A stretch of DNA of 64,000 nucleotides from Lepidurus packardi (lineage: Eukaryota > Arthropoda > Branchiopoda > Notostraca > Triopsidae), in contig JAKZAN010000046.1 in the NCBI GenBank assembly GCA_023053545.1, positions 434,001 to 498,000 of the forward strand. Reading direction: 5' to 3'. Below, piece after piece: positions 2,782 to 64,000 of the stretch; position 1 is the first letter of the stretch, and each line of letters starts with the position of its first letter. Under the pieces are notes generated by a model, which ran no database searches, was not told where the DNA came from, and was given only the letters and a program-made list of their open reading frames with translations. The position numbers and the translations under genes are program-made.

Positions 2782-2859
2782 ACAGACGTGCACTAATGCG
2801 ACGCGAACGCGACGTTGGCCGTCTTAAAAAACCAAAAAACAAACAAACAGACGTGCACT
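2782..2859 (+). mobile_element. 5'-truncated non-LTR retrotransposon tail, copy 1, with 13-bp target duplications
   Basis: The 52-bp core (2795-2846) matches the last bases of the full retrotransposon (from 50665), ending in an A/C-rich tail of the form AAACAAAC. It is flanked by direct repeats ACAGACGTGCACT at 2782-2794 and 2847-2859. Related empty sites, GGGTTAACAGACGTGCACTT, occur elsewhere in satellite A (for example 38490), so the repeats behave as a target-site duplication. The only consistent core difference from the full element is one extra C in the A-rich tail. The core has no coding capacity. Confidence 0.85.
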
Positions 2860-3762
2860 TTGATCGGGTCTCTGATCGGGTCTCTAATCGGGTCTCTGAT
2901 CGGGTCTCTGATCGGGTCTCTAATCGGGTCTCTAATCGGGTCTCTGATCGGGTCTCTAATCGGGTCTCTAATCGGGTCTCTAATCGGGTCTCTGATCGAG
3001 TCTGTGATCGGGTCTCTAATCGGGTCTATGATCGGGTCTCTGATCGGGTCTCTGATCGGGTTTCTGATCGACTCTCTGATCGGGTCTCTGATCGGGTCTT
3101 TAATCGGGTCTCTGATCGACTCTCTGATCGGGTCTCTGATCGGGTCTCTAATCGGGTCTCTAATCGGGTCTCTGATCGGGTCTCTGATCGGGTCTCTAAT
3201 CGGGTCTCTAATCGGGTCTCTAATCGGGTCTCTGATCGGGTCTCTGATCGGGTCTTTAATCGGGTCTTTAATCGGGTCTCTGATCGGGTCTCTGATCGGG
3301 TCTCTGATCGGGTCTCTGATCGACTCTCTGATCGGGTCTCTGATCGGGTCTCTAATCGGGTCTCTAATCGGGTCTCTGATCGGGTCTCTGATCGGGTCTC
3401 TAATCGGGTCTCTAATCGGGTCTCTAATCGGGTCTCTGATCGGGTCTCTGATCGGGTCTCTATTCGGGTCTCTGATCGGTTCTCTAATCGAGGTCTCTGA
3501 TCGGGTCTCTAATCCGGTCTCTAATCGGGTCTCTGATCGGCTCTATAATCGGGTTATCAGACGTGCACTTTGACCGGGACTCTAATCGGGGTCTCTTATC
3601 GGGTCTCTAACCGTGTCTCTGATCGGGTCTCTGATCGGGTCTCTGATCGGGTCTCTGATCGGGTCTCTAATCGGGTCTCTGATCGGGTCTCTAATCGGGT
3701 CTCTGATCGGGTCTCTTATCGCGTCTCTGATCGGGTCTCTGATCGGGTCTCTAATCGGGTTA

Positions 3763-3840
3763 ACAGACGTGCACTAATGCGACGCGAACGCGACGTTGGC
3801 CGTCTTAAAAAACCAAAAAACAAACAAACAGACGTGCACT
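3763..3840 (+). mobile_element. 5'-truncated retrotransposon tail, copy 2
   Basis: Core 3776-3827, with 13-bp repeats at 3763-3775 and 3828-3840. It lies 981 bp from copy 1 in the same higher-order context, so it is best read as a copy made by array amplification, not as a new insertion. Confidence 0.85.
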
Positions 3841-5785
3841 TTGATCGGGTCTCTGATCGGGTCTCTAATCGGGTCTCTAATCGGGTCTCTGATCGAGTCT
3901 CTGATCGGGTCTCTAATCGGGTCTCTGATCGGGTCTCTGATCGGGTCTCTAATCGGGTCTCTAATCGGGTCTCTGATCGGGTCTCTAATCGGGTCTCTAA
4001 TCGGGTCTCTGATCGGGTCTCTAATCGGGTCTCTAATCGGGTCTCTGATCGGGTCTCTAATCGGGTCTCTAATCGGGTCTCTGATCGGGTCTCTAATCGG
4101 GTCTCTGATCGGGTCTCTTATCGCGTCTCTGATCGGGTCTCTGATTGGGTCTCTAATCGGGTTAACAGACGTGAACTTTGATCGGGTCTCTGATCGGGTC
4201 TCTAATCGAGTCTCTGATCGGGTATCTGATCGGGTCTCTAATCGGGTCTCTAATCGGGTCTCTGATCGGGTCTCTGATTGGGTCTCTAATCGGGTCTCTA
4301 ATCGGGTCTCTAATCGGGTTTCTAAACGGGTCTCTAATCGGTTCTCTGATCGGGTCTCTGATCGGGTCTCTAATCGGGTCTCTAATCGGGTCCCTGATCG
4401 AGTCTCTGATCGGGTCTCTAATCGGGTCTCTGATCGGGTTTCTGATCGGGTCTCTAATCGGGTCTCTAATCGGGTCTCTGATCGAGTCTCTAATCGGGTC
4501 TCTAATCGGGTCTCTGATCGGGTCTCTAATCGGGTCTCTAATCGGGTCTCTGATCGGGTCTCTAATCGGGTCTCTAATCGGGTCTCTGATCGGGTCTCTG
4601 ATTGGGTCTCTAATCGGGTCTCTAATCGGGTCTCTAATCGACGTCTCTAATCGAGGTCTCTGATCGGGTCTCTAATCGGGTCTCTAATCGGGTCTCTGAT
4701 CGGGTCTCTAATCGGGTCTCTAATCGGGTCTCTGATCGGGTCTCTGATTGGGTCTCTAATCGGGTCTCTAATCGGGTCTCTAATCGACGTCTCTAATCGG
4801 GGTCTCTGATCGGGTCTCTAATCGGGTCTCTAATCGGGTCTCTAATCGGGTCTGTGATCGGGTCTCTAATCGGGTCTCTGATCGGGTCTCTGATCGGGTC
4901 TCTAATCGGGTCTCTAATCGGGTCTCTAATCGGGTCTCTGATCGGGTCTCTGATCGGGTCTATAATCGGGTCTCTGATCGGGTCTCTGATCGGGTCTCTA
5001 ATCGGGTCTCTGATCGGGTCTCTGATTGGGTCTCTAATCGGGTCTCTAATCGGGTCTCTAATCGACGTCTCTAATCGAGGTCTCTGATCGGGTCTCTAAT
5101 CCGGTCTCTAATCGGGTCTCTAATCGGGTCTGTGATCGGGTCTCTAATCGGGTCTCTGATCGGGTCTCTGATCGGGTCTCTGATCGGGTCTCTGATCGAC
5201 TCTCTGATCGGGTCTCTAATCGGGTCTCTAATCGGGTCTCTAATCGGGTCTCTGATCGGGTCTCTGATCGGGTCTCTAATCGGGTCTCTAATCGGGTCTC
5301 TAATCGGGTCTCTGATCGGGTCTCTGATCGGGTCTTTAATCGGGTCTTTAATCGGGTCTCTGATCGGGTCTCTGATCGGGTCTCTATTCGGGTCTCTAAT
5401 CGGGTCTCTGATCGGGTCTCTGATCGGGTCTCTGATCGGGTCTCTGATCGGGTCTCTAATCGGGTCTCTAATCGGGTCTCTAATCGGGTCTCTGATCGGG
5501 TCTCTAATCGGGTCTCTAATCGGGTCTCTAATCGGGTCTCTGATCGAGTCTCTGATCGGGTCTCTGATCGGGTCTCTGATCGGGTCTCTAATCGGGTCTC
5601 TGATCGGGTCTCTGATCGGGTCTCTAATCGGGTCTCTAATCGGGTCTCTAATCGGGTCTCTAATCGGGTCTCTAATCGGGTCTCTGATCGAGTCTCTGAT
5701 CGGGTCTCTAATCGGGTCTCTGATCGGGTCTCTGATCGGGTCTCTAATCGGGTCTCTAATCGGGTCTGTGATCGGGTCTCTAATC

Positions 5786-8700
5786 GGGACTGAATTAATT
5801 TCATCCGGACTGAATTAATTCATTACGCACTTAATTAATCCATTACGGACTGAATTAATTCCTTACGGACTGTAATAATTCCTTACGGACTGAATTAATA
5901 CCTTACGGACTGAATTAAATCCTTACGGACTGAATTAATTCCTTACGGACTTAATTAATTCCTTACGGACTTAATTAATTCCTTACGGACTGAATTAATT
6001 CATTACGGACTGAATTAATTCATTACGGACTGAATTAATACCTCACGGACTGAATTAAATCCTTACGGACTGAATTATTTCCTTACGGACTTAATTAATT
6101 CCTTACGGACTGAATTAATTCATTACGGACTGAATTAATTCCTTACGGACTGAATTAATTTATTACGGACTGAATTATTTCCTTACGGACTGAATTAATT
6201 CTTTAGGATTGATTGAATTCCTTTCTTACTGAAAAAATTCCTAACGGACTGAATTAATTCCTTAATTAATTCCTTACGGACTGAATTAATTTCATACGGA
6301 CTGAATTAATCCATTACGGACTGAATTAATTCCTTACGGACTTAATTAATTCCTTACGGACTGTATAAATTCCTTACGGACTGAATTAATTCCTTACGGA
6401 CTGAATTAGGTCCTTACGGACTGAATTAATTCTTTAGGATTGATTGAATTCCTTTCTTACTGAATTAATTCCTTACGGACTGAATGAATTCCTTACGGAC
6501 TGAATTAATTTCATACGGACTGAATTAATACCTTACGGACTGTATTAATTCCTTACGGACTGAATTAATACCTTACGGACTGAATTAAATCCTTACGGAC
6601 TGAATTAATTCCTTACGGACTAAATTAATACCTTACGGACTGAATTAATACCTTACGGACTGAATTAAATCCTTACGGACTGAATTAATACCTTACGGAC
6701 TGAATTAAATCCTTACGGACTGAATTAATTCCTTACGGACTTAATTAATTCCTTACGGACTTAATTAATTCCTTACGGACTGAATTAATTCATTACGGAC
6801 TGAATTAATTCATTACGGACTGAATTAATACCTCACGGACTGAATTAAATCCTTACGTACTGAATTAATTCCTAACGGACTTAATTAATTCCTTACGGAC
6901 TGAATTAATTCATTACGGACTGAATTAATTCCTTACGGACTGAATTAATTCCTTACGGACCTAATTAATTCCTTACGGACGGAATTAATTCTTTACGGAC
7001 TTAATTAATTCCTTACGGACTTAATTAATTCCTTACGTACTTAATTAATTCCTTACGGTCTGAATTAATTCCGTACGGATTTAATTAATTCCTTACGGAC
7101 TGAATTAATTCCTTACGGACTAAATTAATTCCTTACGGACTGAATTAATTCCTTACGGACTGAATTAATTCCTTACGGACTGAATTAATTCTTTAGGATT
7201 GATTGAATTCCTTTCTTACTGAATTAATTCATTACGGACTGAAATAATTCCTTACGGACTGAATTAATTCCTTACGGACTAAATTAATTCTTTAATTAAT
7301 TCCGTACGGACTGAATTAATTCATTTCGGACTTAATTAATCGATTACGGACTGAATTAATTCCTTACGTAATGAACTTATTCCTTACGGACTGAATTAAT
7401 TCCTTACGGACTGAATTAATTCATTACGGACTGAAATAATTCCTTACGGACTAAATTAATTCCTTACGGACTGAATTAATTCCTTACGGACTGAATTATT
7501 TCCTTACGGACTGAATTAATTCCTTACGGACTGAATTATTTCCTTACGGACTGAATTAATTCTTTAGGATTGATTGAATTCCTTTCTTACTGAAAAAATT
7601 CCTAACGGACTGAATTAATTCCTTAATTAATTCCTTACGGACTGAATTAATTTCATACGGACTGAATTAATTCATTACGGACTTAATTAATCCATTACGG
7701 ACTGAATTAATTCCTTACGGACTTAATTAATTCCTTACGGACTGTATAAATTCCTTACGGACTGAATTAATTCCTTACGGACTGAATTAGGTCCTTACGG
7801 ACTGAATTAATTCTTTAGGATTGATTGAATTCCTTTCTTACTGAATTAATTCCTTACGGACTGAATGAATTCCTTACGGACTGAATTAATTTCATACGGA
7901 CTGAATTAATACCTTACGGACTGTATTAATTCCTTACGGACTGAATTAATACCTTACGGACTGAATTAAATCTTTACGGACTGAATTAATTCCTTACGGA
8001 CTGAATTAATACCTTACGGACTGAATTAATACCTTACGGACTGAATTAAATCCTTACGGACTGAATTAATACCTTACGGACTGAATTAAATCCTTACGGA
8101 CTGAATTAATTCCTTACGGACTTAATTAATTCCTTACGGACTGAATTAATTCCTAACGGACTTAATTAATTCCTTACGGACTGAATTAATTCATTACGGA
8201 CTGAATTAATTCCTTACGGACGGAATTAATTCTTTACGGACTTAATTAATTCCTTACGGACTTAATTAATTCCTTACGTACTTAATTAATTTCTTACGGT
8301 CTGAATTAATTCCGTACGGATTTAATTAATTCCTTACGGACTGAATTAATTCCTTACGGACTGAATTAATTCATTATGGACTTAATCAATTCCGTAAGGA
8401 ATGAATGAATTAATTACGGACTGAAATAATTCCTTACGGACTAAATTAATTCCTTACGGACTGAATTAATTCCTTACGGACTGAATTAATTCCTTACGGA
8501 CTGAATTAATTCCTTACGGACTGAATTTTTTCCTTACGGACTGAATTAATTCTTTAGGATTGATTGAATTCCTTTCTTACTGAATTAATTCATTACGGAC
8601 TGAAATAATTCCTTACGGACTGAATTAATTCCTTACGGACTAAATTAATTCTTTAATTAATTCCGTACGGACTGAATTAATTCATTTCGGACTTAATTAA

Positions 8701-10160
8701 TCGATTACGGACTGAATTAATTCCTTACGTAATGAACTTATTCCTTACGGACTGAATTAATTCCTTACGGACTTAATTAATTCCTTACGGACTTAATTAA
8801 TTCCTTACGGACTGAATTAATTCATTACGGACTGAATTAATTCATTACGGACTGAATTAATACCTCACGGACTGAATTAATACCTCACGGACTGAATTAA
8901 ATCCTTACGGACTGAATTAATTCCTTACGGACCTAATTAATTCCTTACGGACGGAATTAATTCTTTACGGACTAAATTAATTTCTTACGGACTGAATTAA
9001 TTCCTTACGGACCTAATTATTTCCTTACGGACGGAATTATTTCTTTACGGACTTAATTAATTCCTTACGGACTTAATTAATTCCTTACGTACTTAATTAA
9101 TTCTTTACGGTCTGAATTAATTCCGTACGGATTTAATTAATTCCTTACGGACTGAATTAATTCCTTACGGACTGAATTAATTCATTATGGACTTAATCAA
9201 TTCCGTAAGGAATGAATGAATTAATTACGGACTGAAATAATTCTTTACGGACTAAATTAATTCCTTACGGACTGAATTAATTCCTTACGGACTGAATTAA
9301 TTCCTTACGGACTGAATTAATTCCTTACGGACTGAATTAATTCCTTACGGACTGAATTTTTTCCTTACGGACTGATATAATTCTTTAGGATTGATTGAAT
9401 TCCTTTCTTACTGAATTAATTCATTACGGACTGAAATAATTCCTTACGGACTGAATTAATTCCTTACGGACTAAATTAGTTCTTTAATTAATTCCGTACG
9501 GACTGAATTAATTCATTTCGGACTTAATTAATCGATTACGGACTGAATTAATTCCTTACGTAATGAACTTATTCCTTACGGACTGAATTAATTCCTTACG
9601 GACTGAATTAATACCTTACGGATTTAATTAATTCCTTACGGTCTGAATTAATTCCGTACGGATTTAATTAATTCCTTACGGACTGAATTAATTCCTTACG
9701 GACTGAATTAATTCATTATGGACTTAATTAATTCCGTAAGGAATGAATGAATTAATTACGGACTGAAATAATTCTTTACGGACTGAATTAATTCCTTACG
9801 AACTGAATTAATTCCTTACGGACTGAATTAGTTCCTTACGGACTGAATTAATTCTTTAGGATTTATTGAATTCCTTTCTTACTGAATTAACTACATACGG
9901 ACTGAATGAATTCCTTACGGACTGAATTAATTCCTTACCCACTGAATTAATACCTTACGGATTTAATTAATTCCTTACGGTCTGAATTAATTCCTTACGG
10001 CCTGATTTAATTCCTTACAGACTGAATTAATTCCTTAAGTACTGATTTAATTCCTTACAGACTGGATTAATTCCTCATGGACTGAATTAATTCCTTACGA
10101 ACTTAATTAATTCCTTACGGACTGAATTAATTGTACTGATTGTACTGAATGTATTTCTTA
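5786..10160. repeat. Satellite B, ACTGAATTAA subtype with interrupters
   Basis: This is the older-looking or more heterogeneous half of B1. The 20-bp register shifts several times, with 18-19-bp units, AATTAATTCC half-units and the recurring CTTTAGGATTGATTGAATTC interrupter. The segment ends at a unique-looking TGTACTGATTGTACTGAATG motif near 10133. The same motif marks the matching position at 54668 in block B2. Confidence 0.85.
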
Positions 10161-13100
10161 CGGACTGAATTAATTCCTTACGGACTGAACTAGTTCCTTA
10201 CGGACTTAAATAATTCATTACGGACTTAATTAATTCCTTACGGACTGAATTAATTCATTACGGACTGAATTAATTCATTACGGACTGAATTAATACCTCA
10301 CGGACTGAATTAAATCCTTACGGACTGAATTAATTCCTTACGGACTTAATTAATTCCTTACGGACTGAATTAATTCATTACGGACTGAATTAATTCCTTA
10401 CGGACTGAATTAATTCCTTACGTACTTAATTAATTCCTTACGGTCTGAATTAATTCCGTACGGATTTAATTAATTCCTTACGGACTTAATTAATTCCTTA
10501 CGGACTTAATTAAATCCATACGGACTTAATTAATTCCTTACGGACTTAAATAATTCTTTACGGAATTAATTAATTCATTACGGAATTTATTAATTCATTA
10601 CGGATTCAATTAATTCATTACGGACTTAATTAGTTCCTTACGGACCTAATTCATTTATTACGGACTTAATTAATTCATTACGAACTTAAATAATTCATTA
10701 CGGACTTAATTAAATCCTTACGGATTTAATTAATTCATTACGGACTTAATTAATTCCTTACGGAATTAATTCATTCATTACGGAATTAAATAATTCATTA
10801 CGGATTTAATTAATTCATTACGGACTTTATTAATTCTTTACGGAATTAATTAATTCCTTACGGACTTAATTAATTCTTTACGGAATTAATTAATTCATTA
10901 CGGAATTTATTAATTCATTACGGATTCAATTAATTCATTACGGACTTTCTTAATTCATTACGGACTTAATTAATTCCTTACGGACCTAATTCATTTATTA
11001 CGGACTTTATAAATTCCTTAGGGACTTAATTAATTTCTTACGGACTTAGTTAAATCATAACGGACTAAATTAATTCCTTACGGATTTAATTAATTCCTTA
11101 CGGACTTAATTAATTCCTTACGGACTTAATTAATTCCTTACGGAATTAATTAATTCCTTACGGCCTTAACTAAATCCCTACGGATTTAATTAATTCCTTA
11201 CGGACTTAATTAATTCTTTACGGAATTAATTAATTCATTACGGAATTTATTAATTCATTACGGATTCAATTAATTCATTACGGACTTTCTTAATTCATTA
11301 CGGACTTAATTAGTTCCTTACGGACCTAATTTATTTATTACGGACTTAATTAATTCATTACGAACTTAAATAATTCATTACGGACTTAATTAAATCCTTA
11401 CGGACTTAATTAATTCATTACGGACTTAATTAATTCCTTACGGAATTAATTCATTCATTACGGAATTAAATAATTCACTACGGATTTAATTAATTCATTA
11501 CGGACTTTATTAATTCTTTACGGACTTAATTAATTCCTTACGGACTTAATTAATTCTTTACGGAATTAATTAATTCATTACGGAATTTATTAATTCATTA
11601 CGGAATTAAATAATTCATTACGGATTTAATTAATTCATTACGGACTTTCTTAATTCATTACGGACTTAATTAATTCCTTACGGACCTAATTCATTCATTA
11701 CGGACTTTATAAATTCCTTAGGGACTTAATTAATTTCTTACGGACTTAGTTAAATCATAACGGACTAAAATAATTCCTTACGGACTTAATTAATTCCTTA
11801 CGGACTTAATTAATTCCTTACGGAATTAATTAATTCCTTACGGCCTTAACTAAATCCCTACGGACTTAATTAATTCCTTACGGCCTTAACTAAATCCCTA
11901 CGGACTTAATTAATTCCTTACGGACTTAATTAATTCTTTACGGAATTAATTAATTCATTACGGAATTTATTAATTCATTACGGATTCAATTAATTCATTA
12001 CGGACTTTCTTAATTCATTACGGACTTAATTAATTCCTTACAGACTTAATTAATTCAGTAAGGACTTAATTAATTCCTTACGGACTTAATTAATTCCTTA
12101 CGGACTTAATTATTTCATTACGGACTTAATTCATTCCTTACGGACTTAATTAATTCCTTACGGCCTTAATTAAATCCATACGGACTTAATTAATTCCTTA
12201 CGGACTTAAATAATTCTTTACGGAATTAATTAATTCATTACGGAATTTATTAATTCATTACGGATTCAATTAATTCATTACGGACTTTCTTAATTCATTA
12301 CGGACTTAATTAGTTCCTTACGGACCTAATTCATTTATTACGGACTTAATTAATTCATTACGAACTTAAATAATTCTTTACGGACTTAATTAATTCCTTA
12401 CGGACTTAATTAATTCTTTACGGAATTAATTAATTCATTACGGAATTTATTAATTCATTACGGATTCAATTAATTCATTACGGACTTAATAAATTCCTTA
12501 CGGACCTAATTCATTCATTACGGACTTTATAAATTCCTTAGGGACTTAATTAATTTCTTACGGACTTAGTTAAATCATAACGGACTAAATTAATTCCTTA
12601 CGGACTTAATTAATTCCTTACGGACTTAATTAATTCCTTACGGAATTAATTATTTCATTACGGACTTCATTAATTCCTTACGTACTTAATTAACTCACTA
12701 CGGACTTAATTAATTCCCTACGGAATTTATTAATTCATTACGGACTTAATTATTTCTTTAGGGACTTCATTAATTCATTACGGACTTTATAAATTCCTTA
12801 GGGACTTAATTAATTCCTTACGGACTTAGTTAATTCACTACGGACTTTATTAATTCATTACGGACTTAATTAATTCATTACGGACTTAATTAATTCCTTA
12901 CGGACTTAATTAATTCCTTACGGACTTAATTAATTCATTACGGAATTTATTAATTCATTACGGACTTAATTAAATCCTTACAGACTTAATTAATTCAGTA
13001 AGGACTTAATTAATTCCTTACGGACTTAAATATTTCCTTAGGGACTTCATTAATTCATTACGGACTTTATAAATTCCTTAGGGACTTTATAAATTCCTTA

Positions 13101-16100
13101 GGGACTTTATAAATTCCTTAGGGACTTTATAAATTCCTTAGGGACTTTATAAATTCCTTAGGGACTTAATTAATTCCTTACGGACTTAGTTAATTCACTA
13201 CGGACTTTATTAATTCATTACGGACTTAATTATTTCTTTAGGGACTTCATTAATTCATTACGGACTTTATAAATTCCTTAGGGACTTAATTAATTCCTTA
13301 CGGACTTAGTTAATTCACTACGGACTTTATTAATTCATTACGGACTTAATTAATTCATTACGGACTTAATTAATTCCTTACGGACTTAATTAATTCCTTA
13401 CGGACTTAATTAATTCATTACGGAATTTATTAATTCATTACGGACTTAATTAAATCCTTACAGACTTAATTAATTCAGTAAGGACTTAATTAATTCCTTA
13501 CGGACTTAAATATTTCCTTAGGGACTTCATTAATTCATTACGGACTTTATAAATTCCTTAGGGACTTTATAAATTCCTTAGGGACTTTATAAATTCCTTA
13601 GGGACTTTATAAATTCCTTAGGGACTTTATAAATTCCTTAGGGACTTAATTAATTCCTTACGGACTTAGTTAATTCACTACGGACTTTATTAATTCATTA
13701 CGGACTTAATTAATTCATTACGGACTTAATTAATTCATTACGAACTTAATTAATTCATTACGGACTTAATTAATTCTTTACGGAATTAAATAATTCATTA
13801 CGGAATTTATTAATTCATTACGGAATTAATTAAATCCTGACGGACTTAATTAATTCATTACGGAATTAAATAATTCATTACGGATTTAATTAATTAATTA
13901 CGGACTTTATTAATTCATTACGGAATTAATTAATTCCTTACGGACTTAATTAATTCACTACGGACTTTATTAATTCATTACGGACTTAATTACTTCCTTA
14001 GGGACTTCAATAATTCATTTCGGACTTCATTAATTCATTACGGAATTTATAAATTCCTTAGGAACTTAATTAATTCCTTACGGACTTAGTAAATTCATTA
14101 CGGACTTAATTAATTCCTTACGGACTAAATTAATTCCTTACGGCCTTAATTAAATCTTTACGGAATTAATTAATTCATTACGGAATTTATTAATTCCTTA
14201 CGGATTCAATTAATTCATTACGGACTTTCTTAATTCATTACGGACTTAATTAATTCCTTACGGACCTAATTCATTCATTACGGACTTTATAAATTCCTTA
14301 GGGACTTAATTAATTCCTTACGGATTTAGTTAATTCATAACGGACTTAATTAATTCCTTACGGACTTAATTAATTCCTTACGGCCTTAATTAAATCCCTA
14401 CGGACTTAATTAATTCATTACGGAATTTATTAATTCATTACGGACTTAATTAAATCCTTACAGACTTAATTAATTCCTTACGGACTTAATTAATTCATTA
14501 CGGAATTTATTAATTCATTACGGACTTAATTAAATCCTTACAGACTTAATTAATTCAGTAAGGACTTAATTAATTCCTTACGGACTTAAATATTTCCTTA
14601 GGGACTTCATTAATTCATTACGGACTTTATAAATTCCTTAGGGACTTTATAAATTCCTTAGGGACTTTATAAATTCCTTAGGGACTTTATAAATTCCTTA
14701 GGGACTTTATAAATTCCTTAGGGACTTAATTAATTCCTTACGGACTTAGTTAATTCACTACGGACTTTATTAATTCATTACGGACTTAATTAATTCATTA
14801 CGGACTTAATTAATTCATTACGAACTTAATTAATTCATTACGGACTTAATTAATTCTTTACGGAATTAAATAATTCATTACGGAATTTATTAATTCATTA
14901 CGGAATTAATTAAATCCTGACGGACTTAATTAATTCATTACGGAATTAAATAATTCATTGCGGATTTAATTAATTAATTACGGACTTTATTAATTCATTA
15001 CGGAATTAATTAATTCCTTACGGACTTAATTAATTCACTACGGACTTTATTAATTCATTACGGACTTAATTACTTCCTTAGGGACTTCAATAATTCATTT
15101 CGGACTTCATTAATTCATTACGGAATTTATAAATTCCTTAGGAACTTAATTAATTCCTTACGGACTTAGTAAATTCATTACGGACTTAATTAATTCCTTA
15201 CGGACTAAATTAATTCCTTACGGCCTTAATTAAATCTTTACGGAATTAATTAATTCATTACGGAATTTATTAATTCCTTACGGATTCAATTAATTCATTA
15301 CGGACTTTCTTAATTCATTACGGACTTAATTAATTCCTTACGGACCTAATTCATTCATTACGGACTTTATAAATTCCTTAGGGACTTAATTAATTCCTTA
15401 CGGATTTAGTTAATTCATAACGGACTTAATTAATTCCTTACGGACTTAATTAATTCCTTACGGCCTTAATTAAATCCCTACGGACTTAATTAATTCATTA
15501 CGGAATTTATTAATTCATTACGGACTTAATTAAATCCTTACAGACTTAATTAATTCCTTACGGACTTAATTAATTCATTACGGAATTTATTAATTCATTA
15601 CGGACTTAATTAAATCCTTACAGACTTAATTAATTCAGTAAGGACTTAATTAATTCCTTACGGACTTAAATATTTCCTTAGGGACTTCATTAATTCATTA
15701 CGGACTTTATAAATTCCTTAGGGACTTTATAAATTCCTTAGGGACTTTATAAATTCCTTAGGGACTTTATAAATTCCTTAGGGACTTTATAAATTCCTTA
15801 GGGACTTAATTAATTCCTTACGGACTTAGTTAATTCACTACGGACTTTATTAATTCATTACGGACTTAATTAATTCATTACGGACTTAATTAATTCATTA
15901 CGAACTTAATTAATTCATTACGGACTTAATTAATTCTTTACGGAATTAAATAATTCATTACGGAATTTATTAATTCATTACGGAATTAATTAAATCCTGA
16001 CGGACTTAATTAATTCATTACGGAATTAAATAATTCATTGCGGATTTAATTAATTAATTACGGACTTTATTAATTCATTACGGAATTAATTAATTCCTTA

Positions 16101-18340: not shown

Positions 18341-18353
18341 ACAGACGTGCACT
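18341..18353 (+). other. Empty landmark site (ACAGACGTGCACT without tail)
   Basis: The segment GGGTTAACAGACGTGCACTTCGATCGGG replaces the usual TCTCT spacer between two satellite A monomers; here ACAGACGTGCACT occurs once with no insert. Equivalent single copies start at about 20946, 22896, 24667, 27783, 29821 and 38495, and a variant (GTGAAC) starts near 4163. Most empty sites carry CTTCG after the landmark and GATTGGG upstream, whereas filled sites carry CTTTG and GATCGGG. They therefore form a sister lineage of the same higher-order unit. Confidence 0.8.
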
Positions 18354-50550: not shown

Positions 50551-50718
50551 GTACACAGAGGAAATATCAGTGAATATGTGGAAAAATAAAAAAGAAGAGA
50601 AGAAGAAGAAAAAAAAAAAAAAAAAGAGAAAAGAAAAAAAAAAAAACAGAAAGCCGAAGACGGCAATGCGACGCGAACGCGACGTTGGCCGTCTTAAAAA
50701 ACAAAAAACAAACAAACA
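50551..50718 (+). promoter_or_regulatory. Retrotransposon 3' region: purine tract, terminal stem-loop and A/C-rich tail
   Basis: After the ORF2 stop comes a purine-rich tract (about 50585-50656). Next is a stem of 8 perfect base pairs, AAGACGGC (50657-50664) with GCCGTCTT (50688-50695), around a 23-base GC-rich loop, then an A-rich tail with regular C (AAAAAACAAAAAACAAAC). A conserved 3' hairpin next to a tail is where non-LTR reverse transcriptases often recognise their RNA; that role is inferred. The 52-bp tails scattered in satellite A begin exactly at the first loop base (50665). Confidence 0.75.
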
Positions 50719-52342
50719 ATCGGGTTATCAGACGTGCACTTTGACCGGGACTCTAATCGGGGTCTCTTATCGGGTCTCTAACCGTGTCTCTAACCGTGTC
50801 TCTGATCGGGTCTCTGATCGGGTCTCTGATCGGGTCTCTGATCGGGTCTCTAATCGGGTCTCTGATCGGGTCTCTAATCGGGTCTCTGATCGGGTCTCTT
50901 ATCGCGTCTCTGATCGGGTCTCTGATCGGGTCTCTAATCGGGTTAACAGACGTGCACTAATGCGACGCGAACGCGACGTTGGCCGTCTTAAAAAACCAAA
51001 AAACAAACAAACAGACGTGCACTTTGATCGGGTCTCTGATCGGGTTTCTAATCGGGTCTCTGATCGGGTCTCTGATCGGGTCTCTAATCGGGTCTCTAAT
51101 CGGGTCTCTGATCGGGTCTCTAATCGGGTCTCTAATCGGGTCTCTAATCGGGTCTCTGATCGAGTCTCTGATCGGGTCTCTAATCGGGTCCCTGATCGGG
51201 TCTCTGATCGGGTCTCTAATCGGGTCTCTAATCGGGTCTCTGATCGGGTCTCTAATCCGGTCTCTAATCGGGTCTCTAATCGGGTCTGTGATCGGGTCTC
51301 TAATCGGGTCTATGATCGGGTCTCTGATCGGGTCTCTGATCGACTCTCTGATCGGGTCTCTGATCGGGTCTCTAATCGGGTCTCTGATCGACTCTCTGAT
51401 CGGGTCTCTGATCGGGTCTCTAATCGGGTCTCTGATTGGGTCTCTAATCGGGTCTCTGATCGGGTCTCTAATCGGGTCTCTAATCGGGTCTCTAATCGGG
51501 TCTCTGATCGGGTCTCTAATCGGGTCTTTAATCGGGTCTCTGATCGGGTCTCTGATTGGGTCTCTAATCGGGTCTCTAATCGGGTCTCTAATCGACGTCT
51601 CTAATCGAGGTCTCTGATCGGGTCTCTAATCCGGTCTCTAATCGGGTCTCTAATCGGGTCTGTGATCGGGTCTCTAATCGGGTCTCTGATCGGGTCTCTG
51701 ATCGGGTCTCTGATCGGGTCTCTGATCGACTCTCTGATCGGGTCTCTGATCGGGTCTCTAATCGGGTCTCTAATCGGGTCTCTAATCGGGTCTCTGATCG
51801 GGTCTCTGATCGGGTCTCTGATCGACTCTCTGATCGGGTCTCTGATCGGGTCTCTAATCGGGTCTCTAATCGGGTCTCTGATCGGGTCTCTGATCGGGTC
51901 TCTGATCGGGTCTCTAATCGGGTCTCTAATCGGGTCTCTAATCGGGTCTCTGATCGGGTCTCTGATCGGGTCTTTAATCGGTTCTCTAATCGGGTCTCTG
52001 ATCGGGTCTCTAATCGGGTCTCTAATCGGGTCTCTAATCGACGTCTCTAATCGAGGTCTCTGATCGGGTATCTAATCCGGTCTCTAATCGGGTCTCTAAT
52101 CGGGTCTGTGATCGGGTCTCTAATCGGGTCTATGACCGGGTCTCTGATCGGGTCTCTGATCGGGTCTCTGATCGACTCTCTGATCGGGTATCTGATCGGG
52201 TCTCTAATCGGGTCTCTGATCGACTCTCTGATCGGGTCTCTGATCGGGTCTCTAATCGGGTCTCTAATCGGGTCTCTGATCGGGTCTCTGATCGGGTCTC
52301 TAATCGGGTCTCTAATCGGGTCTCTGATCGGGTCTCTGATCG
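50719..52342. repeat. Satellite A array, block A3
   Basis: Starts immediately after the retrotransposon tail with TCGGGTTATCAGACGTGCAC, which is the start of the roughly 0.95-kb higher-order unit, and holds one tail insertion (50946-51023). It ends at GATCGGGGACTGAATGAATT, where satellite B begins, again with CGG/GGAC shared at the junction. Variants TCGACTC and GTCTATGATC tie it to 41.6 and 63.8 kb. Confidence 0.95.
50946..51023 (+). mobile_element. 5'-truncated retrotransposon tail, copy 10
   Basis: Core 50959-51010; flanking repeats at 50946-50958 and 51011-51023. It lies only about 230 bp downstream of the full-length element's own tail, so full and truncated 3' ends can be compared side by side. 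They differ by one C in the A-rich tail. Confidence 0.87.
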
Positions 52343-55300
52343 GGGACTGAATGAATTCCTTACGGACTGAATGAATTCCTTACGGACTGAATTAATTTCA
52401 TACGGACTGAATTAATTCCTTACTGACTGAATTAATTCCTTACGGACTGAATTAATTCCTTACGGGCTGAATTAATTCCTTACTGACTGAATTAATTCCT
52501 TACGGACTGAATTAATTCCTTACGGACTGAATTAATTCCTTACGGACTGAAATATTTCCTTACGGACTGAATTAATTCTTTAGGATTGATTGAATTCCTT
52601 TCTTACTGAATTAATTCCTTACGGACTTAATTAAATCCTTACAGACTAAATTAATTCCTTATGGACTTAATTAATTCCGTAAGGAATGAATTAATTAATT
52701 ACGGACTGAATTAATTCCTTACGGACTGAATTAATTATATAATTAATTCCTTACGGACTGAGTTAATTTCATACGGACTGAATTAATTCATTACGGACTT
52801 AATTAATCGATTACGGACTGAATTAATTCCTTACGTACTGAACTTATTCCTTACGGACTGAATTATATCCTTACGGACTGAATTAATTCCTTACGGACTG
52901 AATTAATTCCTTACGGACTGAATTAATTCCTTACGGACTGAAATATTTCCTTACGGACTGAATTAATTCTTTAGGATTGATTGAATTCCTTTCTTACTGA
53001 ATTAATTCCTTACGGACTTAATTAAATCCTTACAGACTAAATTAATTCCTTATGGACTTAATTAATTCCGTAAGGAATGAATTAATTAATTACGGACTGA
53101 ATTAATTCCTTACGGACTGAATTAATTCTATAATTAAATCCTTACAGACAAAATTAATTCCTTATGGACTTAATTAATTCCGTAAGGAATGAATTAATTC
53201 ATTACGCACTTAATTAATCCATTACGGACTGAATTAATACCTTACGGACTGAATTAAATCCTTACGGACTGAATTAATACCTTACGGACTGAATTAAATC
53301 CTTACGGACTGAATTAATTCCTTACGGACTTAATTAATTCCTTACGGACTTAATTAATTCCTTACGGACTGAATTAATTCATTACGGACTGAATTAATTC
53401 ATTACGGACTGAATTAATACCTCACGGACTGAATTAAATCCTTACGGACTGAATTAATTCCTAACGGACTTAATTAATTCCTTACGGACTGAATTAATTC
53501 ATTACGGACTGAATTAATTCCTTACGGACTGAATTAATTCCTTACGGACCTAATTAATTCCTTACGGACGGAATTAATTCTTTACGGACTTAATTAATTC
53601 CTTACGGACTTAATTAATTCCTTACGTACTTAATTAATTCCTTACGGTCTGAATTAATTCCGTACGGATTTAATTAATTCCTTACGGACTGAATTAATTC
53701 CTTACGGACTGAATTAATTCATTATGGACTTGATCAATTCCGTAAGGAATGAATGAATTAATTGCGGACTGAAATAATTCCTTACGGACTAAATTAATTC
53801 CTTACGGACTGAATTAATTCCTTACGGACTGAATTAATTCCTTACGGACTGAATTAATTCCTTACGGACTGAATTTTTTCCTTACGGACTGAATTAATTC
53901 TTTAGGATTGATTGAATTCCTTTCTTACTGAATTAATTCATTACGGACTGAAATAATTCCTTACGGACTGAATTAATTCCTTACGGACTAAATTAATTCT
54001 TTAATTAATTCCGTACGGACTGAATTAATTCATTTCGGACTTAATTAATCGATTACGGACTGAATTAATTCCTTACGTAATGAACTTATTCCTTACGGAC
54101 TGAATTAATTCCTTACGGACTGAATTAATACCTTACGGATTTAATTAATTCCTTACGGTCTGAATTAATTCCGTCCGGATTTAATTAATTCCTTACGGAC
54201 TGAATTAATTCCTTACGGACTGAATTAATTCATTATGGACTTAATTAGTTCCGTAAGGAATGAATGAATTAATTACGGACTGAAATAATTCTTTACGGAC
54301 TGAATTAATTCCTTACGAACTGAATTAATTCCTTACGGACTGAATTAGTTCCTTACGGACTGAATTAATTTTTTAGGATTTATTGAATTCCTTTCTTACT
54401 GAATTAACTACATACGGACTGAATGAATTCCTTACGGACTGAATTAATTCCTTACCCACTGAATTAATACCTTACGGATTTAATTAATTCCTTACGGTCT
54501 GAATTAATTCCTTACGGCCTGATTTAATTCCTTACAGACTGAATTAATTCCTTACGGCCTGATTTAATTCCTTACAGACTGGATTAATTCCTCATGGACT
54601 GAATTAATTCCTTACGAACTTAATTAATTCCTTACGGACTTAATTAATTCCTTACGGACTGAATTAATTGTACTGATTGTACTGAATGTATTTCTTACGG
54701 ACTGAATTAATTCCTTACGGACTGAACTAATTCCTTACGGACTTAAATAATTCATTACGGACTTAATTAATTCCTTACGGACTGAATTAATTCACTACGG
54801 ACTGAATTAATTCATTACGGACTGAATTAATACCTCACGGACTGAATTAAATCCTTACGGACTGAATTAATTCCTTACGGACTTAATTAATTCCTTACGG
54901 ACTGAATTAATTCATTACGGACTGAATTAATTCCTTACGGACTGAATTAATTCCTTACGTACTTAATTAATTCCTTACGGTCTGAATTAATTCCGTACGG
55001 ATTCAATTAATTCCTTACGAACTTAATTAATTCCTTACGGACTTAATTAAATCCATACGGACTTAATTAATTCCTTACGGACTTAAATAATTCTTTACGG
55101 AATTAATTAATTCATTACGGAATTTATTAATTCATTACGGATTCAATTAATTCATTACGGACTTTCTTAATTCATTACGGACTTAATTAGTTCCTTACGG
55201 ACCTAATTCATTTATTACGGACTTAATTAATTCATTACGAACGTAAATAATTCATTACGGACTTAATTAAATCCTTACGGACTTAATTAAATCATTACGA

Positions 55301-58300
55301 ACTTAATTAATTCCTTACGGAATTAATTCATTCATTACGGAATTAAATAATTCATTACGGATTTAATTAATTCATTACGGACTTTATTAATTCTTTACGG
55401 ACTTAATTAATTCCTTACGGACTTAATTAATTCTTTACGGAATTAATTAATTCATTACGGAATTTATTAATTCATTACGGATTCAATTAATTCATTACGG
55501 ACTTTCTTAATTCATTACGGACTTAATTAATTCCTTACGGACCTAATTCATTCATTACGGACTTTATAAATTCCTTAGGGACTTAATTAATTTCTTACGG
55601 ACTTAGTTAAATCATAACGGACTAAATTAATTCCTTACGGACTTAATTAATTCCTTACGGACTTAATTAATTCCTTACGGAATTAATTAATTCCTTACGG
55701 CCTTAACTAAATCCCTACGGACTTAATTAATTCCTTACGGACTTAATTAATTCTTTACGGAATTAATTAATTCATTACGGAATTTATTAATTCATTACGG
55801 AATCAATTAATTCATTACGGACTTTCTTAATTCATTACGGACTTAATTAATTCCTTACGGACCTAATTCATTTATTACGGACTTAATTACTTCATTACGA
55901 ACTTAAATAATTCATTACGGACTTAATTAAATCCTTACGGACTTAATTAATTCATTACGGACTTAATTAATTACTTACGGAATTAATTCATTCATTACGG
56001 AATTAAATAATTCATTACGGATTTAATTAATTCATTACGGACTTTATTAATTCTTTACGGACTTAACTAATTCCTTACGGACTTAATTAATTCTTTACGG
56101 AATTAATTAATTCATTACGGAATTTATTAATTCATTACGGATTCAATTAATTCATTACGGACTTTCTTAATTCATTACGGACTTAATAAATTCCTTACGG
56201 ACCTAATTCATTCATTACGGACTTTATAAATTCCTTAGGGACTTAATAAATTCCTTACGGACTTAGTTAAATCATAACGGACTAAATTAATTCCTTACGG
56301 ACTTAATTAATTCCTTACGGACTTAATTAATTCCTTACGGAATTAATTAATTCCTTACGGCCTTAACTAAATCCCTACGGACTTAATTAATTCCTTACGG
56401 ACTTAATTAATTCCTTACGTACTTAATTAACTCACTACGGACTTAATTAATTCCCTACGGAATTTATTAATTCATTACGGACTTAATTATTTCCTTAGGG
56501 ACTTCATTAATTCATTACGGACTTTATAAATTCCTTAGGGACTTAATTAATTCCTTACGGACTTAGTTAATTCATTACGGACTTAAATATTTCCTTAGGG
56601 ACTTCATTAATTCATTACGGACTTTATAAATTCCTTAGGGACTTAATTAATTCCTTACGGACTTAGTTAATTAACTACGGACTTTATTAATTCATTACGG
56701 ACTTAATTAATTCAGTACGGACTTAACTAATTCCTTACGGATTTAATTAATTCCTTACGGACTTAATTAATTCATTACGGAATTTATTAATTCATTACGG
56801 AATTAATTAAATCCTTACAGACTTAATTTATTCAGTAAAGACTTAATTAATTCCCTACGGACTTTATTAATTCATTACGGACTTAATTATTTCCTTAGGG
56901 ATTTCATTAATTCATTTCGGACTTCATTAATTCATAACGGACTTAATTAATTCATTACGGACTTAATTAAATCCTTACGGACTTAATTAATTCCTTACGT
57001 ACTTAATTAATTCCTTACGGTCTGAATTAATTCCGTACGGATTTAATTAATTCCTTACGGACTTAATTAATTCCTTACGGACTTAATTAATTCCTTACGG
57101 AATTAATTAATTCCTTACGGCCTTAACTAAATCCCTACGGACTTAATTAATTCCTAACGGACTTAATTAATTCTTTACGGAATTAATTAATTCATTACGG
57201 AATTTATTAATTCATTACAGATTCAATTAATTCATTACGGACTTTCTTAATTCCTTACGGACTTAATTAATTCCTTACGGACTTAATTATTTCATTACGG
57301 ATTTAATTCATTCCTTACGGACTTAATTAATTCCTTACGGCCTTAATTAAATCCATACGGACTTAATTAATTCCTTACGGACTTAAATAATTCTTTACGG
57401 AATTAATTAATTCATTACGGAATTTATTAATTCATTACGGATTCAATTAATTCATTACGGACTTTCTTAATTCATTACGGACTTAATTAGTTCCTTACGG
57501 ACCTAATTCATTTATTACGGACTTAATTAATTCATTACGAACTTAAATAATTCTTTACGGACTTAATTAATTCCTTACGGACTTAATTAATACTTTACGG
57601 AATTAATTAATTCATTACGGAATTTATTAATTCATTACGGATTCAATTAATTTATTACGGACTTTATTAATTCATTACGGACTTAATAAATTCCTTACGG
57701 ACCTAATTCATTCATTGCGGACTTTATAAATTCCTTAGGGACTTAATTAATTTCTTACGGACTTAGTTAAATCATAACGGACTAAATTAATTCCTTACGG
57801 ACTTAATTAATTCCTTACGGACTTAATAAATTCCTTACGGAATTAATTAATTCCTTACGGCCTTAACTAAATCCCTACGGACTTAATTAATTCCTTACGG
57901 ACTTAATTAATTCCTTACGGACCTAATTCATTAATTACGGACTTAATTAATTCATTACGAACTTAAATAATTCATTACGGACTTAATTAAATCCTTACGG
58001 ACTTAATTAATTCAATACGGACTTCATTAATTCCTTACGGAATTAATTCATTCATTACGGAATTAAATAATTCATTACGGATTTAATTAATTCATTACGG
58101 ACTTTATTAATTCTTTACGGACTTAATTAATTCCTTACGGACTTAATTAATTCTTTACGGAATTAAATAATTCATTACGGAATTTATTAATTCATTACGG
58201 AATTAATTAAATCCTTACGGACTTAATTAATTCATTACGGAATTAAATAATTCATTACGGATTTAATTATTTCACTACGGACTTTATTAATTCATTACGG

Positions 58301-61300
58301 ACTTAATTATTTCCTTAGGGACTTCATTAATTCATTACGGACTTTATAAATTCCTTAGGGACTTTAGAAATTCCTTAGGTACTTAATTAATTCCTTACGG
58401 ACTTAGTTAATTCATTACGGACTTAAATATTTCCTTAGGGACTTCATTAATTCATTACGGACTTTATAAATTCCTTAGGGACTTAATTAATTCCTTACGG
58501 ACTTAGTTAATTCACTACGGACTTTATTAATTCATTACGGACTTAATTAATTCAGTACGGACTTAACTAATTCCTTACGGATTTAATTAATTCCTTACGG
58601 ACTTAATTAATTCATTACGGAATTTATTAATTCATTACGGACTTAATTAAATCCTTACAGACTTAATTTATTCAGTAAAGACTTAATTAATTCCCTACGG
58701 ACTTTATTAATTCATTACGGACTTAATTATTTCCTTAGGGATTTCATTAATTCATTTCGGACTTCATTAATTCATAACGGACTTAATTAATTCATTACGG
58801 ACTTAATTAAATCCTTACGGACTTAATTAATTCCTTACGTACTTAATTAATTCCTTACGGTCTGAATTAATTCCGTACGGATTTAATTAATTCCTTACGG
58901 ACTTAATTAATTCCTTACGGCCTTAACTAAATCCCTACAGACTTAATTAATTCCTAACGGACTTAATTAATTCTTTACGGAATTAATTAATTCATTACGG
59001 AATTTATTAATTCATTACGGATTCAATTAATTCATTACGGACTTTCTTAATTCCTTACGGACTTAATTAAGTCCTTACGGACTTAATTATTTCATTACGG
59101 ACTTAATTCATTCCTTACGGACTTAATTAATTCCTTACGGCCTTAATTAAATCCATACGGACTTAATTAATTCCTTACGGACTTAAATAATTCTTTACGG
59201 AATTAATTAATTAATTACGGAATTTATTAATTCATTACGGATTCAATTAATTCATTACGGACTTTCTTAATTCATTACGGACTTAATTAGTTCCTTACGG
59301 ACCTAATTCATTTATTACGGACTTAATTAATTCATTACGAACTTAAATAATTCTTTACGGACTTAATTAATTCCTTACGGACTTAATTAATACTTTACGG
59401 AATTAATTAATTCATTACGGAATTTATTAATTCATTACGGATTCAATTAATTCATTACGGACTTTATTAATTCATTACGGACTTAATAAATTCCTTACGG
59501 ACCTAATTCATTCATTGCGGACTTTATAAATTCCTTAGGGACTTAATTAATTTCTTACGGACTTAGTTAAATCATAACGGACTAAATTAATTCCTTACGG
59601 ACTTAATTAATTCCTTACGGACTTAATTAATTCCTTACGGAATTAATTAATTCCTTACGGCCTTAACTAAATCCCTACGGACTTAATTAATTCCTTACGG
59701 ACTTAATTAATTCCTTACGGACCTAATTCATTAATTACGGACTTAATTAATTCATTACGAACTTAAATAATTCATTACGGACTTAATTAAATCCTTACGG
59801 ACTTAATTAATTCATTACGGACTTCATTAATTCCTTACGGAATTAATTCATTCATTACGGAATTAAATAATTCATTACGGATTTAATTAATTCATTACGG
59901 ACTTTATTAATTCTTTACGGACTTAATTAATTCCTTACGGACTTAATTAATTCTTTACGGAATTAAATAATTCATTACGGAATTTATTAATTCATTACGG
60001 AATTAATTAAATCCTTACGGACTTAATTAATTCATTACGGAATTAAATAATTCATTACGGATTTAATTATTTCACTACGGACTTTATTAATTCATTACGG
60101 ACTTAATTATTTCCTTAGGGACTTCAATAATTCATTTCGGACTTAGTTAATTCATTACGGACTTTATTAATTCATTACGGACTTAATTAATTCAGTACGG
60201 ACTTTATTAATTCATTACGGAATTAATTAATTCCTTACGGACTTAATTAATTCCTTACGGCCTTAATTAAATCTTTACGGAATTAATTAATTCATTACGG
60301 AATTTATTAATTCATTACGGATTCAATTAATTCATTACGGAATTTCTTAATTCATTACGGACTTAATTAATTCCTTACGGACCTAATTCATTCATTACGG
60401 ACTTAATTATTTCATTACGGACTTAATTCATTCCTTACGGACTTAATTAATTCCTTACGGCCTTAATTAAATCCATACGGACTTAATTAATTCCTTACGG
60501 ACTTAAATAATTCTTTACGGAATTAATTAATTCATTACGGAATTTATTAATTCATTACGGACTTTCTTAATTCATTACGGACTTAATTAGTTCCTTACGG
60601 ACCTAATTCATTTATTACGGACTTAATTAATTCATTACGAACTTAAATAATTCTTTACGGACTTAATTAATTCCTTACGGACTTAATTAATACTTTACGG
60701 AATTAAATAATTCATTACGGATTTAATTATTTCACTACGGACTTTATTAATTCATTACGGACTTAATTATTTCCTTAGGGACTTCATTAATTCATTACGG
60801 ACTTTATAAATTCCTTAGGGACTTTAGAAATTCCTTAGGTACTTAATTAATTCCTTACGGACTTAGTTAATTCATTACGGACTTAAATATTTCCTTAGGG
60901 ACTTCATTAATTCATTACGGACTTTATAAATTCCTTAGGGACTTAATTAATTCCTTACGGACTTAGTTAATTCACTACGGACTTTATTAATTCATTACGG
61001 ACTTAATTAATTCAGTACGGACTTAACTAATTCCTTACGGATTTAATTAATTCCTTACGGACTTAATTAATTCATTACGGAATTTATTAATTCATTACGG
61101 ACTTAATTAAATCCTTACAGACTTAATTTATTCAGTAAAGACTTAATTAATTCCCTACGGACTTTATTAATTCATTACGGACTTAATTATTTCCTTAGGG
61201 ATTTCATTAATTCATTTCGGACTTCATTAATTCATAACGGACTTAATTAATTCATTACGGACTTAATTAAATCCTTACGGACTTAATTAATTCCTTACGT

Positions 61301-63187
61301 ACTTAATTAATTCCTTACGGTCTGAATTAATTCCGTACGGATTTAATTAATTCCTTACGGACTTAATTAATTCCTTACGGACTTAATTAATTCCTTACGG
61401 AATTAATTAATTCCTTACGGCCTTAACTAAATCCCTACGGACTTAATTAATTCCTAACGGACTTAATTAATTCTTTACGGAATTAATTAATTCATTACGG
61501 AATTTATTAATTCATTACGGATTCAATTAATTCATTACGGACTTTCTTAATTCCTTACGGACTTAATTAAGTCCTTACGGACTTAATTATTTCATTACGG
61601 ACTTAATTCATTCCTTACGGACTTAATTAATTCCTTACGGCCTTAATTAAATCCATACGGACTTAATTAATTCCTTACGGACTTAAATAATTCTTTACGG
61701 AATTAATTAATTCATTACGGAATTTATTAATTCATTACGGATTCAATTAATTCATTACGGACTTTCTTAATTCATTACGGACTTAATTAGTTCCTTACGG
61801 ACCTAATTCATTTATTACGGACTTAATTAATTCATTACGAACTTAAATAATTCTTTACGGACTTAATTAATTCCTTACGGACTTAATTAATACTTTACGG
61901 AATTAATTAATTCATTACGGAATTTATTAATTCATTACGGATTCAATTAATTCATTACGGACTTTATTAATTCATTACGGACTTAATAAATTCCTTACGG
62001 ACCTAATTCATTCATTGCGGACTTTATAAATTCCTTAGGGACTTAATTAATTTCTTACGGACTTAGTTAAATCATAACGGACTAAATTAATTCCTTACGG
62101 ACTTAATTAATTCCTTACGGACTTAATTAATTCCTTACGGAATTAATTAATTCCTTACGGCCTTAACTAAATCCCTACGGACTTAATTAATTCCTTACGG
62201 ACTTAATTAATTCCTTACGGACCTAATCCATTAATTACGGACTTAATTAATTCATTACGAACTTAAATAATTCATTACGGACTTAATTAAATCCTTACGG
62301 ACTTAATTAATTCATTACGGACTTCATTAATTCCTTACGGAATTAATTCATTCATTACGGAATTAAATAATTCATTACGGATTTAATTAATTCATTACGG
62401 ACTTTATTAATTCTTTACGGACTTAATTAATTCCTTACGGACTTAATTAATTCTTTACGGAATTAAATAATTCATTACGGAATTTATTAATTCATTACGG
62501 AATTAATTAAATCCTTACGGACTTAATTAATTCATTACGGAATTAAATAATTCATTACGGATTTAATTATTTCACTACGGACTTTATTAATTCATTACGG
62601 ACTTAATTATTTCCTTAGGGACTTCAATAATTCATTTCGGACTTAGTTAATTCATTACGGACTTTATTAATTCATTACGGACTTAATTAATTCAGTACGG
62701 ACTTTATTAATTCATTACGGAATTAATTAATTCCTTACGGACTTAATTAATTGCTTACGGCCTTAATTAAATCTTTACGGAATTAATTAATTCATTACGG
62801 AATTTATTAATTCATTACGGATTCAATTAATTCATTACGGAATTTCTTAATTCATTACGGACTTAATTAATTCCTTACGGACCTAATTCATTCATTACGG
62901 ACTTTATAAATTCCTTAGGGACTTAATTAATTCCTTACGGATTTAGTTAATTCATTACGGACTTAATTAAATCCTTACAGACTTAATTAATTCAGTAAGG
63001 ACTTAATTGATTCCTTACGGACTTAATTAATTCCTTACGGACTTAATTATTTCATTACGGACTTCATTAATTCCTTACGGACTTAATTAATACACTACGG
63101 ACTTAATTAATTCCCTACGGAATTTATTAATTCATTACGGACTTAATTATTTCCTTAGGGACTTCATTAATTCATTACGGACTTTAT
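52343..63187. repeat. Satellite B array, block B2 (20-bp monomer)
   Basis: Same orientation and same internal polarity as B1: a heterogeneous ACTGAATTAA subtype with CTTTAGGATTGATTGAATTC interrupters to about 54700, the TGTACTGATTGTACTG marker at 54668, then the ACTTAATTAA subtype in one unbroken 20-bp register to the end (about 424 units). The right junction to satellite A is identical to that of B1. The left junction differs, so B2 is a paralogous copy of B1 with a different left breakpoint. No open reading frame is supported. Confidence 0.97.
58261..63187. repeat. ~2.5-kb higher-order repeat in satellite B2
   Basis: The monomer-variant order from 58261 recurs from 60721 (offset 2460 bp, becoming 2500 bp after about 61380 through a gain of two monomers). 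Shared rare variants include ACTTTAGAAATTCCTTAGGT, TTCAGTAAAGACTTAATT and CATTGCGG. A further related copy lies 1800 bp upstream of the first (57241 versus 59041). All offsets are multiples of 20. Confidence 0.75.
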
Positions 63188-64000
63188 ATCTAATCGGGTC
63201 TCTGATCGGGTCTCTAAACGGGTCTCTAATCGGGTCTCTGATCGACTCTCTGATCGGGTCTCTGATCGGGTCTCTAATCGGGTCTCTAATCGGGTCTCTG
63301 ATCGGGTCTCTGATGGGTCTCTAATAGGGTCTCTAATCGGGTCTCTAATCGGGTCTCTAATCGGGTCTCTGATCGGGTCTCTGATCGGGTCTCTTATCGC
63401 GTCTCTGATCGGGTCTCTTATCGGGTCTCTAACCGTGTCTCTGATCGGGTCTCTGATCGGGTCTCTGATCGGGTCTCTGATGGGGTCTCTGATCGGGTCT
63501 CTAATCGGGTCTCTGATCGGGTCTCTAATCGGGTCTCTGATCGGGTCTCTTATCGCGTCTCTGATCGGGTCTCTGATCGGGTCTCTAATCGGGTTAACAG
63601 ACGTGCACTAATGCGACGCGAATGCGACGTTGGCCGTCTTAAAAAACCAAAAAACAAACAAACAGACGTCCACTTTGATCGGGTCTCTGATCGGGTCTCT
63701 ATTCGGGTCTCTGATCGGGTCTCTGATCGGGTCTCTAATCGGGTCTCTAATCGGGTCTCTAATCGGGTCTCTGATCGGGTCTCTGATCGGGTCTCTAATC
63801 GGGTCTGTGATCGGGTCTCTAATCGGGTCTATGATCGGGTCTCTGATCGGGTCTCTGATCGGGTCTCTGATCGACTCTCTGATCGGGTCTCTGATCGGGT
63901 CTCTAATCGGGTCTCTGATCGACTCTCTGATCGGGTCTCTGATCGGGTCTCTAATCGGGTCTCTAATCGGGTCTCTGATCGGGTCTCTGATCGGGTCTCT
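63188..64000. repeat. Satellite A array, block A4 (continues past window end)
   Basis: Begins after satellite B at the repeated junction GGACTTTATATCTAATCGGG and contains one tail insertion. Private changes (GATGGGTC, AATAGGGTC, GATGGGGTC) show slightly higher divergence than in A2. The array runs off the right edge of the window. Confidence 0.95.
63597..63674 (+). mobile_element. 5'-truncated retrotransposon tail, copy 11 (most diverged)
   Basis: Core 63610-63661; left repeat ACAGACGTGCACT (63597-63609), right repeat ACAGACGTCCACT (63662-63674) with one mismatch. The core has AATGCGACG where others have AACGCGACG. The mismatched duplication makes this the oldest-looking or least homogenised copy. 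Confidence 0.82.

Follow-up and report, generated by a model that had tools for sequence, protein, structure and literature searches.

We describe here a 64,000-nucleotide window of the Lepidurus packardi genome (positions 434,001 to 498,000 of contig JAKZAN010000046.1, assembly GCA_023053545.1), most of which consists of two satellites. The first, satellite A, is a 12-bp repeat (ATCGGGTCTCTA) found at about 1-5788, 16892-42336, 44506-44605, 50742-52344 and 63189-64000. It harbors an apparently full-length non-long-terminal-repeat (non-LTR) retrotransposon, or long interspersed nuclear element (LINE), at 44606-50718 on the + strand, together with eleven 52-bp copies of a LINE 3' tail, each set between two copies of a short target sequence that other positions of the same array carry once. 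We propose that these tails stem from one extremely truncated insertion that was subsequently multiplied by the satellite.

The LINE and the eleven tails

The 5' boundary of the LINE was inferred from the point at which the satellite stops. Its two open reading frames (ORFs), both intact and on the + strand, overlap by 16 nt. ORF1 (45275-46756; 493 aa) displays three CCHC-like zinc-knuckle patterns, detected in a pattern search as C-X2-C-X3/4-H-X4/6-C, and matches no Pfam family at E<=0.001; it also contains an internal 81-bp direct repeat (45358-45438 / 45487-45567, 73% identical). ORF2 (46741-50550; 1269 aa) matches families of endonucleases (PF14529, 3.5e-17; PF03372, 3.1e-10), reverse transcriptases (PF00078, 1.3e-36) and RNase H (PF00075, 8.6e-18), as well as 26 PDB sequences at E<=0.01, LINE-1 ORF2 and R2 reverse transcriptase proteins among them. 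Judged by these predicted domains, the element is a non-LTR retrotransposon of the apurinic/apyrimidinic endonuclease (APE) type with an RNase H domain, presumably of an I-superfamily-like clade. At its 3' end, an A- and C-rich tail follows a stable hairpin. The hairpin, obtained by folding of the LINE 3' end, spans 50657-50695 on the + strand with a predicted energy of -20.6 kcal/mol (z -4.26; 0 of 200 shuffles as stable), and Rfam gave no match at gathering level.

The 52-bp core occurs eleven times in satellite A, always on the + strand, and shares 96-98% identity with the last 53-54 bases of the LINE. BLAST alignments of the cores with the LINE 3' end span 54-55 columns with E values of 1.15e-19 to 1.4e-18, which excludes a chance match, and all eleven extend to the LINE terminus at 50718 or to its overlap with the target. 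When up to 3 substitutions were tolerated, the core was found at 12 places on the + strand, namely the eleven cores and the LINE end itself at 50665, and at none on the - strand. The eleven cores listed in the original prediction are thus all present at their positions, and their match to a LINE 3' end was confirmed; the match to the LINE is close without being exact, as every core reads CC where the full LINE has a single C. Nine cores are identical, the one at 18999 has an A>G substitution at its first base, and the one at 63610 has one C>T.

The point of truncation is common to the eleven cores. All start at the base equivalent to 50665 (the substituted base in the core at 18999), which is the first base past the 5' arm of the hairpin, so that this arm is missing from every core whereas the LINE has the whole hairpin. 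Reverse transcriptase may have stopped at the hairpin edge, halted by the RNA structure or by a bound protein, although this concerns a single event judged post hoc, for which chance may also account. Since the LINE is present as a single copy while the tail was multiplied in the window, and since their tails differ by one base, the LINE copy at 44606-50718 is probably not the direct parent of the tails; a close relative probably was. Collections of viral and prokaryote contigs, which hold neither animals nor plants, yielded four and one pattern matches to ORF2, respectively, none of which was confirmed; the first 24 bases of the core had no match among the viral contigs, and a 30-base satellite pattern had none among the prokaryote contigs.

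Filled sites, empty sites and a second landmark form

Each filled site comprises a left 13-mer (ACAGACGTGCACT), the 52-bp LINE tail and a right 13-mer. On the + strand, such sites are located at 2782-2859 (core at 2795), 3763-3840 (3776), 18986-19063 (18999), 33611-33688 (33624), 34592-34669 (34605), 37112-37189 (37125), 38093-38170 (38106), 40423-40500 (40436), 41356-41433 (41369), 50946-51023 (50959) and 63597-63674 (63610). The left 13-mer is exact in all eleven and the right one in ten, the copy at 63662 having one substitution (1 of 22 copies). Empty sites, in which the 13-mer occurs once, are found on the same strand at 18341-18353, 20946-20958, 22896-22908, 24667-24679, 27783-27795, 29821-29833 and 38495-38507, the seven already predicted and all confirmed here, to which we add an eighth, absent from the original list, at 4165-4177, with one substitution in its 13-mer. 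They share the frame GGGTTA-ACAGACGTGCACT-TTGATC, with TCGATC as the last element in six of the eight; the site at 38495 combines an exact 13-mer with TTGATC, like the filled sites. The hexamer TTAACA was counted 19 times over 33,775 bp of satellite A, a number equal to that of the eight empty and eleven filled sites together.

Because all eight empty sites carry the 13-mer only once, its second copy in the filled sites is a true target-site duplication, and the claim that the flanking 13-mers are duplicated relative to unfilled positions held when checked. Only the length first given for it, 13 bp, needs to be relaxed: in ten of the eleven filled sites the exactly shared sequence (AACAGACGTGCACT) extends over 14 bp, and the LINE tail itself also ends in AACA, so that the duplication measures 10-14 bp.

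The landmark CAGACGTGCACT, searched with at most one mismatch, occurs 38 times in the window: 22 times as a flank of filled sites, eight times in empty sites, and eight times in a second form preceded by T. This second form (TCAGACGTGCACT), overlooked in the original prediction, starts on the + strand at 2576, 3557, 34386, 37887, 40217, 41150, 42179 and 50728. Seven of the eight lie upstream of a filled site, at a distance of 206 bp or, in one case, 218 bp, the latter being the copy at 50728-50740 that abuts the full LINE and precedes the filled site at 50946; beyond the remaining one, at 42179, the array is interrupted near 42338.

The 3' end of the full LINE joins ATCGGGTTATCAGACGTGCACT, which belongs to the second landmark form; relative to the base used by the tail-only copy, this junction is shifted by about 10 bp. 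The full LINE is therefore an insertion separate from the tail-only copies. Filled, empty and full-length states had been predicted to stand together as a before-and-after record; the filled and empty states do coexist in the window, but the full-length element belongs to another insertion, in the other landmark form. No target-site duplication was found for the LINE when the 45 bp upstream of 44606 were compared with the 50 bp from 50716 on. The words shared by the two junctions are ordinary satellite. The longest, of 11 bp, is situated 30 bp away from the left junction and about 32 bp away from the right one; a word of 8 bp (AATCGGGT) found directly at the right junction is 29 bp away from the left one. 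With the intact second form at 2576 as reference, the two junctions would lack 50 bp between them, and farther out the monomers of the LINE left flank are unlike those of intact second-form copies. A deletion at the LINE insertion is plausible.

A probable single truncated insertion spread with the satellite

The eleven tails are best explained by a single insertion by target-primed reverse transcription (TPRT), cut down to the 3' tail of the element and then amplified with larger satellite units, a reading to which we assign a probability of about 0.85. It relies on the truncation point and the CC shared by all copies, on the target-site duplication as seen against the eight empty sites, and on a 72-bp left flank common to ten of the eleven sites; the extreme 5' truncation and spread with the satellite that were originally predicted are well supported by the same evidence.

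The number of events was assessed from monomer strings and diagnostic bases instead of a tree of flanks, because exchange mixes the flanks. To the left of the 13-mer, ten filled sites have the same 72 bp, a sequence matched by none of the eight empty sites, which are identical to one another there and differ from the ten by one base (GATT for GATC). The rare monomer TATCGCGTCTCT, which accounts for 19 of the 2801 monomer tokens of satellite A, stands at an equal distance to the left of the landmark in the ten filled and the eight empty sites, and this shared placement argues that they belong to one lineage, as opposed to resembling each other through chance satellite likeness. To the right, the third monomer is AATCGAG in all eight empty sites and in none of the eleven filled ones. 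Filled sites form pairs with a spacing of 981 bp (2782/3763, 33611/34592 and 37112/38093) or 933 bp (40423/41356), and the empty sites at 4165 and 38495 each follow a filled site at a distance of 402 bp downstream, within one larger unit. Such fixed spacings of filled pairs, second-form landmarks and empty sites indicate block copying of one filled unit.

The following sequence of events can be proposed. A LINE of the family seen whole at 44606-50718 would have nicked a landmark variant GGGTTA/ACAGACGTGCACT/TTGATC. The A- and C-rich end of its RNA (...AACAAACA) would then have annealed to the nicked strand through at most four base pairs, as suggested by the AACA bases shared by tail and target, and primed reverse transcription there. 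Synthesis likely covered about 52-55 nt before it halted at the hairpin, on the inner side of its 5' arm, after which the short cDNA would have been sealed in and 10-14 bp of target duplicated, most likely in a single event. Unequal exchange, or a similar form of satellite turnover, would have multiplied the filled monomer, with copying of units of about 0.93-0.98 kb and of larger blocks producing the 11 copies of the window. Empty paralogues would have remained alongside, two of them at that distance of 402 bp from a filled site, and the full LINE would have arrived separately in the other landmark form.

Several observations weigh against this scenario. Sixty random phase-matched pairs of satellite A segments (gapped alignments, 240 bp) have a mean identity of 89.5% and a maximum of 93.8%, and comparisons of filled with empty flanks over 240 bp mostly fall within this background (for example, 87.6-89.4% for the left flank of 2782 against the empty sites), although the left flanks of 33611 and 38495 reach 95.4%. 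The homology between filled and empty sites consequently depends on about the six nearest monomers, the farther flanks being mostly within the satellite background. Moreover, the exact pre-insertion allele of the filled haplotype was not found in the window: the empty sites are paralogous array positions that differ in two diagnostic monomers, and are close proxies of that allele rather than the allele itself. The filled site at 18986 is the most discordant. Its monomer strings differ on both sides from those of the other ten, its first core base is G, and AATTAACAG replaces AATCGGGTTAACAG at its left edge, as if from a 5-bp deletion; its 240-bp flanks are no closer to those of the other ten than the background (79.5-86.5% on the left, 92.1-93.8% on the right). 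The 13-mers, the truncation and the CC are nevertheless the same as in the other ten, and we regard it as a further copy of the one insertion, relocated by exchange and modified, while a second event at this position is conceivable. Assembly error may also play a part in a region this repetitive.

The different context of 18986 would be expected if the LINE recognized the landmark ACAGACGTGCACT and several tail-only insertions had occurred independently. The full LINE likewise has its end close to a landmark form, about 10 bp away, although no more than 2.6% of the positions of satellite A (886/33,775, the landmarks of filled sites being included) lie 12 bp or less from the start of a landmark copy. 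That figure was nonetheless obtained post hoc on two events, the 3' junction of the full LINE lies at another base of the landmark and lacks a detected target duplication, and independent insertions would have to reproduce the same truncation and the same CC eleven times and an identical 72-bp left flank ten times, which makes repeated insertion very unlikely. Both recognized insertions do lie near the landmark, about 10 bp apart relative to it, and these two events, judged after the fact, are a hint only of a preference of the LINE for the landmark. It is possible, if unlikely, that the LINE targets the satellite, prefers the landmark monomer and has a reverse transcriptase that sometimes stops at its own 3' hairpin. 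In that case, insertions of the tail alone would be heritable tags amplified by the satellite and a record of array turnover. A further link of the landmark with the LINE, through ACAGACGTG in the 5' untranslated region of the element (at 44634 and 44969), was dropped, as two occurrences were seen where roughly just under one match to such a 9-mer would arise by chance in a LINE of this size.

Explanations that dispense with TPRT, or that reverse the direction of transfer, fare worse. Very short non-coding inserts can arise as filler DNA captured during the repair of a break, but a random capture would hardly be expected to consist of the 3' terminus of a LINE with its A-rich tail, in the expected orientation, with a 10-14 bp duplication and an AACA overlap at the 3' junction, and we consider this origin highly improbable. 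That the LINE instead took its 3' end from a satellite unit, as might be imagined from the excess of cores over LINEs in the window (11 vs 1), is scarcely credible: the hairpin is whole in the LINE only, the core does not resemble the 12-bp repeat, and on either side of it stands a sequence that the empty sites hold once, as expected of an incoming piece.

Known systems and other features of the window

LINE insertions made by TPRT, such as those of L1 and other APE-type elements, include 5'-truncated copies that keep the 3' terminus and have a short target-site duplication and an A-rich tail. The tails of satellite A resemble them in the kept 3' terminus, the lost 5' part, the short duplication and the A-rich tail; they differ in that about 52 of some 6110 bp were retained, and in that the 11 copies are mostly or entirely secondary products of satellite spread.

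Non-LTR elements within satellite arrays are likewise on record. The consulted portions of a report on Drosophila centromeric satellites describe G2/Jockey-3 elements inside the arrays (PMC11620609; on the same subject, PMC6516634); the likeness lies in non-LTR elements residing within satellites, with the difference that satellites with element insertions are described there, whereas here a 52-bp tail is found with filled and empty sites adjacent. Satellites that contain or derive from LINE 3' ends are mentioned in excerpts on the common cetacean satellite and L1 and on 18HT and HeT-A (PMC9659126; reviewed in PMC12628747). In both of these and in satellite A a LINE 3' end lies within a tandem repeat; the present case differs in that the satellite appears to be older than the tail, which marks a subset of larger units and is not their founder. 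A 12-bp satellite also appears in a study of Drosophila subobscura (PMC6795482); its sequence is not given in the excerpts, and no link to satellite A is claimed. A paper on owl microsatellites that contains one 12-mer of the satellite was set aside as a chance match; it was the one hit obtained for satellite 12-mers in some of their rotations, a piece of the 20-bp repeat and the landmark. In the literature searched, as represented by such partial texts, neither this element nor a comparable tail was found to be described, a statement that concerns those texts and not all that is in print.

The process is thus already established in its parts, namely 5' truncation of LINEs, LINEs in satellites and satellites with LINE 3' ends, and the accepted picture of retrotransposition is unchanged. 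What is unusual is the clarity of the case, 64 kb containing an insertion reduced to the tail, the corresponding empty sites and a closely related full-length element. A very short LINE tail becomes recognizable when such a relative sits nearby, and in a monotonous 12-bp satellite it provides a distinctive tag with which block duplication and recombination can be tracked across the eight empty and eleven filled sites.

The second satellite of the window, a 20-bp repeat (GGACTTAATTAATTCCTTAC), occupies about 5787-16887 and 52344-63184. Its two arrays are of similar length, about 11 kb each, are bordered on both edges by the 12-bp satellite, and are 83.9-85.0% identical to each other in the tandem-repeat alignments shown.

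A 2.2-kb non-satellite piece at 42338-44505 interrupts the 12-bp array. It contains a 174-aa open frame at 43180-43701 with no Pfam family at E<=0.001, and a frame near its right end that we take to resemble the start of the gag gene of an LTR element. At the array break near 42338, a spacing of 268 bp remains, compared with 933-1029 bp elsewhere; judged by this spacing, about 700 bp of satellite, including one filled site, seems to be missing at the piece.

Finally, the 12-bp repeat is free of stop codons in some frames and thereby generates long spurious ORFs made of four-residue repeats. One of them, of 354 codons at 50540-51604, crosses a filled site, and an annotation pipeline could take such frames for genes.

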